Below, piece after piece: positions 20,415 through 22,718 of a DNA stretch of 64,000 nt. Numbering within the stretch: position 1 is the first letter of the stretch; the number at the start of each line of letters is the position of its first letter. The position numbers were made by a program, and so were the translations under genes. The DNA is from Streptomyces sp. CB01635 (GTDB taxonomy: Bacteria > Actinomycetota > Actinomycetes > Streptomycetales > Streptomycetaceae). The stretch is from contig NZ_NNBL01000001.1 of the NCBI RefSeq assembly GCF_002803065.1, positions 838,724 through 902,723 on the forward strand. The letters run 5' to 3'. The notes under the pieces are model-generated. The model was not told the DNA's origin. It searched no databases and worked only from the letters and a program-made list of their open reading frames with translations.

Positions 20415-20759
20415 GCTGCGCCTCGCTTCTCGGGTCCCGCGTCCTGCGTACTCCGGTTCCGCACCCGGACAGGTTCAACAGTATTGCTGAGACACCAAAG
20501 TTGTGAAAGCGCTGCGGGGTGGAAAGGGCGGGTGTGAAGGGGCTGTTGGGGTGTGAGTGAGCGCTTATACGCCTCGCGGAACCCGCTGTACAGAGGCTGA
20601 TCATCATGTGAGAAGTGCCGCTATGTGATCTCCGCCACCGCGTGCTCCCTGCCTGGTGGGGGAAGGTGCACAGTCGGTCCGCGCCATGTCAGGAATGTCG
20701 CGGGCCGCAGCACATCCGGACCCCGGAGCAATCCGGGCACCACAGAGGGATCCCCCCAC
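20415..20759. other. Divergent intergenic region, MerR / asparagine permease
   Basis: These 345 bp hold the candidate MerR promoter (20476-20507), an AGCGCTTA element at 20560-20567 that on the minus strand repeats the TAAGCGCT core of the operator at 12748-12755, and the ribosome binding site AGAGGGA of the permease near 20743-20749. No clear promoter hexamers are visible for the permease and no ORF is convincing. Confidence 0.5.
20476..20507 (-). promoter_or_regulatory. Candidate MerR promoter with internal dyad
   Basis: Minus-strand TTCACA (20502-20507) and TACTGT (20478-20483) are 18 bp apart. The dyad CAnCAnTAnTGnTG (20476-20489) overlaps the -10. It is 62 bp upstream of the MerR start, which fits autoregulation. 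Confidence 0.4.
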
Positions 20760-22232
20760 GTGAGCAAGGAAGCCGCCAACACGGCTCTGGACGCATCCCG
20801 CACAGATGCGTCCCAGGCGCCCGCCGACGCGGGTGACGCCGGCTACAGCAAGGACCTCAAGGCCCGCCACGTCAACATGATCGCGATCGGTGGCGCGATC
20901 GGTACCGGACTGTTCCTCGGAGCGGGCGGCCGCCTCCATTCGGCGGGCCCCGCACTCGCCGTCGCATACCTCGTCTGCGGAGTCTTCGCGTACCTGGTCG
21001 TGCGCGCCCTCGGCGAGATGGTCGTGTACCGGCCGTCCTCGGGTTCCTTCGTCTCGTACGCGCGCGAGTTCCTCGGTGAGAAGGGCGCCTACGTCGCCGG
21101 CTGGATGTACTTCCTCAACTGGTCGATGACGGGCATCGCGGACATCACCGCGATCGCCCTCTACACCCAGTACTGGAGTGCCTTCACGACCATTCCGCAG
21201 TGGGTTCTCGCGCTGATCGCCCTCGCGGTCGTGCTCGGCGTGAACCTGATCTCGGTGAAGTACTTCGGCGAGATGGAGTTCTGGTTCGCGATCATCAAGG
21301 TGGCCACGCTCGTCGCCTTCCTGTTCGTGGGCGTCTTCCTGATCGCCACGCAGCACCCGATCGACGGCCAGACCCCGGGCCTGAGCATGATCACGGACCA
21401 CGGCGGATTCATGCCGAGCGGCACTATGTCGGTGATCCTCGTCATGCAGGGCGTCGTCTTCGCGTACGCCGCCCTGGAGCTGGTGGGTGTCGCGGCAGGC
21501 GAGACCGCCGACCCGCAGAAGGTCGTCCCGCGCGCGGTGAACTCGATCATGTGGCGCGTCGGCCTGTTCTACTGCGGATCGGTGGTGCTGCTCGCACTGC
21601 TGCTGCCGTCCTCGGTGTACTCGTCGAACGAGAGCCCGTTCGTCACCCTGTTCAGCAAGCTGGGCGTCGGCGGCATCGGCGACATCATGAACCTGGTCGT
21701 GCTCACCGCGGCCATGTCCAGCCTCAACTCGGGCCTCTACTCCACCGGCCGCATCCTGCGCTCGATGGCGATGTCGGGCTCCGCGCCCAAGTTCACCGCC
21801 CGCATGAACCGCAGCCAGGTGCCGTACGGCGGCATCCTGCTCACCGCGGGTGTCGGCGTCCTCGGAGTCGGCCTCAACTACCTCCTCCCGCACGACGCCT
21901 TCGAGATCGTCATCGAGGTCTCCTCGATCGGCATCATCGGCACCTGGGTCATGATCATGGTCGCCCACCTGGCGTTCGTCCGGCGGGCCAAGCAGGGCCT
22001 GATCAAGCGGCCGTCGTTCCGCCTGCCCTGGTCCCCGGTCACCGAGATCGTCACGATCGTCTTCCTGCTGCTCGTGCTCGGCCTCATGTGGAACGACCCG
22101 GACACGGGTCGCAAGACGCTGATGCTGATCCCGGTCATCGCGGTCATGCTCGTCGCCGGCTGGTTCGCCGCCCGCCGCCGCATCCAGCGTGAGTCGACCC
22201 AGGAACTGGCCAAGCTGACCGACGGCGAATAA
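20760..22232 (+). CDS. ansP: L-asparagine permease (AnsP-like amino acid transporter)
   Basis: The 490-residue protein of the APC superfamily has 12 hydrophobic segments. Diagnostic stretches are IAIGGAIGTGLFLGAG, ALGEMVVYRPSSGSFVSYA, FLGEKGAYVAGWMYFLNW and VVFAYAALELVGVAAGETADP. These closely resemble mycobacterial AnsP, which imports L-asparagine with protons. The GTG start is chosen for its AGAGGGA site. Other substrates such as D-serine or glycine (CycA) cannot be excluded. It stands alone, transcribed away from the MerR gene. Confidence 0.82.
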   Translation: MSKEAANTALDASRTDASQAPADAGDAGYSKDLKARHVNMIAIGGAIGTGLFLGAGGRLHSAGPALAVAYLVCGVFAYLVVRALGEMVVYRPSSGSFVSYAREFLGEKGAYVAGWMYFLNWSMTGIADITAIALYTQYWSAFTTIPQWVLALIALAVVLGVNLISVKYFGEMEFWFAIIKVATLVAFLFVGVFLIATQHPIDGQTPGLSMITDHGGFMPSGTMSVILVMQGVVFAYAALELVGVAAGETADPQKVVPRAVNSIMWRVGLFYCGSVVLLALLLPSSVYSSNESPFVTLFSKLGVGGIGDIMNLVVLTAAMSSLNSGLYSTGRILRSMAMSGSAPKFTARMNRSQVPYGGILLTAGVGVLGVGLNYLLPHDAFEIVIEVSSIGIIGTWVMIMVAHLAFVRRAKQGLIKRPSFRLPWSPVTEIVTIVFLLLVLGLMWNDPDTGRKTLMLIPVIAVMLVAGWFAARRRIQRESTQELAKLTDGE

Positions 22233-22242
22233 CGCCGGCCCC

Positions 22243-22268
22243 CCACTGTCAGTGGCAGCCCCTACGGT
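22243..22268 (+). promoter_or_regulatory. PafBC/RecA-NDp-type DNA-damage promoter
   Basis: TGTCAGTG (22247-22254), exactly 8 bp, then TACGGT (22263-22268) fits the actinobacterial consensus TGTCRGTG-N8-TANNNT recognised with PafBC. The upstream half also makes a CCACTG-T-CAGTGG palindrome (22243-22255). The predicted start of transcription falls on the ATG at 22275, so the mRNA would be leaderless. Confidence 0.75.
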
Positions 22269-22274
22269 GGCGTC

Positions 22275-22355
22275 ATGTCGGAGATCACGTATGTCCGAGG
22301 TGACGCCACCGTGCCGTTGGGCATAGCGGTGACGGTGTACGACCACGGGGACTGA
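22275..22355 (+). pseudogene. Truncated macro-domain (ADP-ribose-binding) gene remnant
   Basis: The 26-codon ORF begins MSEITYVRGDATVP, the canonical first strand of Streptomyces macro-domain (Appr-1-p processing) proteins, which bind or hydrolyse ADP-ribose or O-acetyl-ADP-ribose. After residue 15 the sequence departs (LGIAVTVYDHGD, stop), and the expected HVCNDxGxWGxGF core is absent. About 100 residues are missing, so I read it as a decayed gene or deletion scar. It still sits directly behind an intact DNA-damage promoter. A genuine 26-residue peptide is possible but less likely. Confidence 0.6.
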
Positions 22356-22397
22356 GCCGCACGTTGCTAGTGGCGGGTGGTCGGGTAGGTCCATGGC

Positions 22398-22718
22398 ATG
22401 GCCCTTGTATCCCTGCCCCTGGAATTCCACCTCAAGGTGGGTCAACTCGGCGCATCCGTCGCCCTGTTCGCGGCGGGGGTCGTCGGCCGGGCGCGGCGGT
22501 GGGCCGGGGATCAGGAGGCGGCCGCCCCGGGGAGCGAGCAACTGCCTCAGCCCTGCCAGTGCGCTCCCGTGCGGCCCCGCGCGGACCTCGCCGCCGGGCC
22601 GCGCGGCCCGGTCGCCGCCGCCGAGACGGACCTGCGCACCTGTGTCTCGGAGCTCGCGTCCGACCTGGCGTCCCGCCTGGGCAGTGAGTCGCAGGGCGGC
22701 GGCATGGCACACCCCTGA
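22398..22718 (+). CDS. Small hypothetical protein
   Basis: A 106-codon ORF with strongly GC-biased third positions. The N-terminus (LPLEFHLKVGQLGASVALFAAGVVGRARRW) is amphipathic to hydrophobic and could touch a membrane; the rest is Pro/Ala/Glu-rich with four Cys and no recognised domain. No good ribosome binding site is visible, and the DNA-damage promoter 130 bp upstream might read into it. It could be a by-product of high-GC composition. Confidence 0.4.
   Translation: MALVSLPLEFHLKVGQLGASVALFAAGVVGRARRWAGDQEAAAPGSEQLPQPCQCAPVRPRADLAAGPRGPVAAAETDLRTCVSELASDLASRLGSESQGGGMAHP

Follow-up and report, generated by a model that had tools for sequence, protein, structure and literature searches.

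We analyzed a window of 64,000 nt from Streptomyces sp. CB01635, which carries, all on the plus strand, an amino-acid permease gene, a damage-type promoter motif, a 26-codon frame, a predicted RNA hairpin, and a further gene of 106 codons. The promoter and the short frame had been recognized in the original prediction, but the hairpin spanning the start codon and the C-terminal codons of the frame had been overlooked. The features are as follows.

20625..22232, plus strand: amino-acid permease, SCO6734-type, start codon uncertain (Pfam AA_permease, E = 1.6e-113, residues from 20745)
22247..22268, plus strand: RecA-NDp/PafBC-type promoter motif TGTCAGTG-N8-TACGGT (pattern match versus shuffles)
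22266..22310, plus strand: conserved RNA hairpin, proposed permease terminator (fold energy, covariation, permease association)
22275..22275, plus strand: putative leaderless transcription start, placed by spacing alone (6 nt past the -10 box)
22275..22355, plus strand: relic of an SCO6735-type macrodomain gene, with ~16 codons from its beginning, ~10 from its end, and the stop (comparison with full-length orthologues)
22319..22323, plus strand: deletion junction region (~399 nt missing compared with the 159-codon orthologue in locus L005)
22398..22718, plus strand: older 106-codon gene, family unknown (frame kept in three sister genomes; no Pfam match)

Both ends of a lost macrodomain gene

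The 26-codon frame, MSEITYVRGDATVPLGIAVTVYDHGD, runs from the ATG at 22275 to the TGA at 22353-22355. It opens with MSEITYVRGDATVP, as SCO6735-type proteins of relatives do, and closes with ~10 codons from the C-terminal end of the same gene. In several relatives, a first piece of the query matched up to ~22323 and a second piece from ~22319, ~460 to 480 bp further along; the junction was placed where the two pieces overlap (22319-22323). Judged by this comparison, the frame is both ends of the gene joined in frame by an internal deletion of ~399 nt, which removed ~133 codons, including the body of the domain, relative to the L005 orthologue (159 codons). The predicted macrodomain N-terminus with a stop after 26 codons was thus borne out. 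The check proposed with it, a search for a full macro gene at this locus in relatives, was run, and full-length genes were present at the same syntenic place; the region was matched in 22 of 61 genomes of the genus (own genome counted). Orthologues read whole have ~158 to 171 codons and begin with MSEITYVRGDATVP or similar, and most end with VTVYDHG or similar. Together with the published UV inducibility of the orthologue SCO6735, described in the available part of PMC5087735, these genes uphold the proposed loss of a damage-inducible macrodomain gene. What did not hold was that only a promoter and a start codon had been left, as the in-frame deletion kept both ends. The syntenic place has both terminal sequences of the family but not the complete domain with its catalytic region; with the body of the domain missing, we regard the frame as a relic and not as a member of the SCO6735-type family.

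The macro protein query had a match at E = 0.001 in 230 of 392 genomes, own genome counted (225 of the 380 good ones), the best E value being weaker than 1e-40 in 33 of the 230 (read off the table). In the own genome, the search with this query, which included no positive control of its own, found no full second copy. The single Pfam Macro match there is another gene, presumably YmdB-like. Because PF01661 misses SCO6735-type proteins at E = 0.001 (0/3 tested), the Pfam search leaves the question of a full copy unsettled, and Pfam-based annotation may miss such proteins. Among 80 named loci around the neighboring oxygenase gene, 8 had only a macro match of 65 residues or less.

A second genome of the species (G161) has the identical 26-codon frame. 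The sister species share the deletion but have lost start, frame, or stop: in L183 (G308) the frame ends after 5 codons; in L032 (Streptomyces sp. NBC_01446) ATG, frame, stop, and promoter motif are all gone; and in L067 (S. antnestii) the loss is greater still, most of the frame being gone. These losses also mark the 26-codon ORF as a relic. Two other loci showed different fates of the macro gene. In L009 (G024), the frame breaks after 44 codons and the macro pieces lie ~2.3 kb apart, so something was inserted; the gene is split by ~1.8 kb of extra DNA, an alternative route of loss. Start-codon capture is possible in L165 (G061), where, behind the permease, the former start codon of the macro gene shares its reading frame with the next gene (314 codons), which resembles a sugar-kinase-type gene that elsewhere sits after a relic.

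The damage promoter motif

The window has a single copy of the motif TGTCAGTG-N8-TACGGT (22247-22268, plus strand), and 100 shuffles gave no match, in agreement with the exact PafBC/RecA-NDp motif that had been predicted. In the own genome, TGTCAGTG-N8-TANNNT gave 40 sites and a reversed control pattern gave 0. Thirty of these sites were inspected; 29 had a downstream frame, with the chosen start codon 6 to 10 nt past the -10 box in 12 of the 29. A Pfam scan of ten downstream proteins, chosen by eye as repair-gene look-alikes, returned RecA, UvrB, a UvrD-type helicase, two DEAD-box helicases, a PD-(D/E)XK nuclease, a 6-O-methylguanine methyltransferase, a uracil-DNA glycosylase, DNA polymerase III alpha, and ribosomal protein S6. 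Near pafA, the genome also encodes two WYL proteins, one of them with HTH_PafC. The number of sites and the repair genes behind several of them point to a PafBC-type regulon of considerable size in Streptomyces; according to the available part of PMC9380542, however, a first search did not show conservation in S. venezuelae of the Mycobacterium smegmatis PafBC motif. At our locus, the ATG (22275) lies 6 nt past the -10 box, a spacing from which we infer a leaderless start at this very position.

The TGTCAGTG box itself is part of a small perfect palindrome, CCACT-GTC-AGTGG (22243-22255), and many relatives show a similar GCCACTGTCAGTGGC. In L186 (G229), right after the permease stop, the main hairpin described below is lost and the palindrome at the TGTCAGTG box is extended to GGGGCCACTGTCAGTGGCCCC (z = -2.0), perhaps as a substitute terminator.

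The hairpin over the start codon and its association with the permease

A 45-nt hairpin reaches from the -10 box over the ATG to codon 12. It consists of an outer stem of 11 bp (22266-22276 with 22300-22310) and an inner stem of 5 bp (22278-22282 with 22294-22298), with a predicted energy of -32.1 kcal/mol (z = -7.0), and the A and T of the ATG are paired in the predicted fold of the long RNA. An RNA beginning at the ATG folds no better than shuffles (z = -0.9). Since the 5' arm lies upstream of the putative start site, only read-through RNA would form the hairpin.

The hairpin is GC-rich and stable and lies 34 nt after the permease stop. A terminator scan for a U tract after the stem gave 0, and the hairpin was therefore not filed as a classical intrinsic terminator. 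The missing U tract would also suit a hairpin that protects or marks the 3' end of the permease mRNA after Rho-dependent termination without being a terminator itself, and structured U-lacking ends in S. clavuligerus can be read either way (available part of PMC8269248). This role is compatible with the sequence evidence, and we give it a tangible, if minor, chance.

The terminator role that we prefer draws on the association of the hairpin with the permease. We compared 86 intact loci, 80 from the best-scoring matches listed and 6 further ones, which is a non-random draw; 46 had the permease within 120 nt, 38 had no upstream permease hit, and 2 loci with the permease farther off were set aside. 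At least 9 of the 10 outer pairs were formed in 43 of the 46 permease-adjacent loci versus 5 of the 38 loci without permease, leaving 3 exceptions with fewer than 9 pairs in the first group and 5 with the stem in the second. The median fold was -29.7 kcal/mol with permease versus -12.4 without, and the contrast had a Mann-Whitney p of 1e-11 when relatedness was ignored. On the macro gene tree (86 loci, 201 columns), each label changed 9 times on the best tree and only 2 independent pairs were supported, so this tree cannot correct the contrast of 43/46 versus 5/38 for relatedness. Use of the codon GGT, with which pairing to the A of the ATG becomes possible, was seen in 38/46 permease-adjacent loci versus 10/38 others. 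The promoter motif behaves differently from the hairpin, being present in 44/46 versus 30/38. The two loci set aside combine the permease with a separate strong hairpin, and neither has the element. In L246, one of the 38 loci without permease, the last residues of a permease seem by eye to be left upstream, as if it had been lost recently.

We also examined the DNA that follows the permease in genomes lacking a macro match (160, in two sets of 80), and 43 loci had a permease C-terminal part at least 72% identical. The hairpin element was kept in 16 of these 43 loci and absent from 27, two of which (L179 and L202) were not judged because a contig ends there or close by. Among the other 25 element-less loci, all of them checked, a different hairpin with z below -2 was present in 11 and absent from 14. 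Retention of the hairpin after loss of the macro gene is thus common, not general.

Relics, alternatives, and a proposed mechanism

The fate of the hairpin was followed in 21 relics chosen by the pattern of its arms, a choice that partly builds in stem retention and makes a hairpin in 21/21 true by construction, the 16/43 above being the fairer figure. We removed L195 (decayed) and L039 (the same as L161), no match came from L158, and L148, added by a second pattern, is absent from alignment A1 (20 sequences). Across the 20 relics, two-sided changes were found in 7 of 19 pairs versus 2.5 in shuffles, none of 500 shuffles being as high, and slid control structures had 0 to 2 such pairs; 89.7% of cells were paired versus 87.4% when shuffled. 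Where only one side had changed among the ten outer pairs of the relics, the outcome was U-G in 5 cells and an unpaired cell in one, a pattern that fits an RNA. Under the same arm-based selection, 7 changes fell in the arms versus 93 in the middle. The arms of L189 and L188 pair across 19 positions, with G-U pairs in L188. One pair is blocked in the intact gene by two coding G residues, that of the ATG and the first one of a glycine codon; it was formed in 0 of 84 intact loci versus 6 of 16 relics of equal length. Comparative evidence of this kind suggests that the hairpin, once freed from coding, can get more perfect in relics.

Loss too recent to have erased anything would make the locus an ordinary young pseudogene, in which promoter, start, and stem simply remain. 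With 1 change in 45 relative to the intact consensus (P = 0.096), the window relic is too young to be informative alone, and the full promoter motif persists in 9 and the ATG in 11 of the 21 arm-selected relics. Against this account stand six relics (L067, L159, L163, L169, L188, and L189) with 7 to 16 changes, no ATG, and a stem kept or strengthened, together with pairs never seen in intact loci, both of which arm selection inflates; we consider recent loss alone unlikely to explain the locus. The same counts do not support the predicted promoter plus start codon as a conserved remainder, the hairpin going instead with the permease.

The palindrome could instead act as DNA, with no RNA structure, if a dimeric regulator of the damage promoter bound it as an operator; it adjoins the -10 box and has near-symmetric arms. 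Where the permease is absent, however, the stem is found in only 5/38 loci although 30/38 have the promoter motif; moreover, the hairpin is kept in promoter-less relics, and one-sided changes yielding U-G pairs occur. We find this very improbable.

Equally improbable is that the promoter now drives the 106-codon ORF, as had been suggested. The ORF is on the same strand, its ATG lies 43 nt behind the relic stop, and RNA initiated at the relic ATG would form no hairpin. It is, however, an older gene: three sister genomes keep its frame, with whole-codon indels and dN/dS of 0.28 to 0.60 (six comparisons), it is open in L032 and L067 despite their broken promoter motif, and other species hold relatives at ~43% identity, although a Pfam search gave no match. 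The window and the three sister genomes have in common a conserved stretch with GGTCGGGTAGG directly upstream of it (22356-22397), a possible promoter of its own to judge from this conservation. With a kept frame and its own upstream stretch, the ORF need not depend on the damage promoter, and its capture of that promoter is not supported. Finally, a functional damage-induced peptide of 26 residues was rejected as next to impossible: two genomes of the species retain its complete frame from start to stop, but the closest other genomes, L183, L032, and L067, have it broken.

The remnant seems to persist for its RNA structure, not for a protein or a promoter. The best explanation, which we consider probable, is that the 26-codon frame is a dead macrodomain remnant and that the hairpin is a terminator or 3'-end structure of the upstream permease gene. 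From the gene identity, deletion, covariation, and permease association that we observed, and from the predicted hairpin, we infer termination, the start site, and gating in the following scheme. In intact species, the hairpin overlaps the -10 box, the putative leaderless start codon, and codons 1 to 12. Read-through RNA from the permease would hold both arms and fold, and would either end there or have its start codon hidden, while damage-promoter RNA, starting at the ATG without the 5' arm, would pass. After loss of the macro body, the hairpin could be retained for the permease, and pairing could be perfected once the coding constraint had gone. In its full form, a terminator gated by transcript origin, which halts or silences permease RNA, is invisible to damage-promoter RNA, and was perfected as a stand-alone terminator after gene loss, repeatedly in the genus, this proposal has in our view about an even chance of being right.

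Under this scheme, a dead bacterial gene could keep its 5' end after its body has gone because a neighbor needs that end, and a damage gene could be insulated from its neighbor using no spare DNA. Intact, freshly broken, and long-broken loci would form a natural series in which the coding constraint on an RNA structure is lifted and the structure improves. In the literature searched, we found no case of a bacterial pseudogene exapted as a transcription terminator and no report of a terminator hairpin overlapping the start codon of a downstream gene.

The closest known systems each share part of this arrangement. SCO6735 of S. coelicolor, an ALC1/TARG1/DarG-like macrodomain hydrolase, has an amino-acid permease upstream (PMC9411070) and a RecA-NDp promoter, with an ~5-fold rise after UV (PMC5087735), according to the available parts of these reports. 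The window locus is like it in protein ends, upstream permease, and promoter type but lacks the ~133 codons of the domain body. RecA-NDp/PafBC-type promoters of actinobacteria are matched in motif, 8-nt spacing, leaderless-like start, and PafB/PafC-like genes near pafA. As far as the accessible part of PMC8269248 describes them, the structured U-lacking ends of S. clavuligerus are I-shaped terminators or ends of Rho-dependent transcripts; our hairpin resembles them in its strong stem, below their divide of -23 kcal/mol, and in having no U tract, but differs in overlapping the -10 box and coding start of a neighbor. In gene e (lysozyme) of phage T4, the start is hidden by a hairpin when transcripts are long; the 5' strand of this hairpin lies upstream of the transcripts of the near promoter, which escape it (PMC3014915, accessible part). 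The logic would be shared, with a start codon in a predicted hairpin of the long RNA and, if transcription starts at the ATG, a 5' arm upstream of that start. However, T4 gene e is a case of translation control of a Shine-Dalgarno gene, whereas the window has a candidate leaderless start and its hairpin probably acts on the end of the upstream RNA, a second role that, unlike in gene e, gene loss reveals at this locus.
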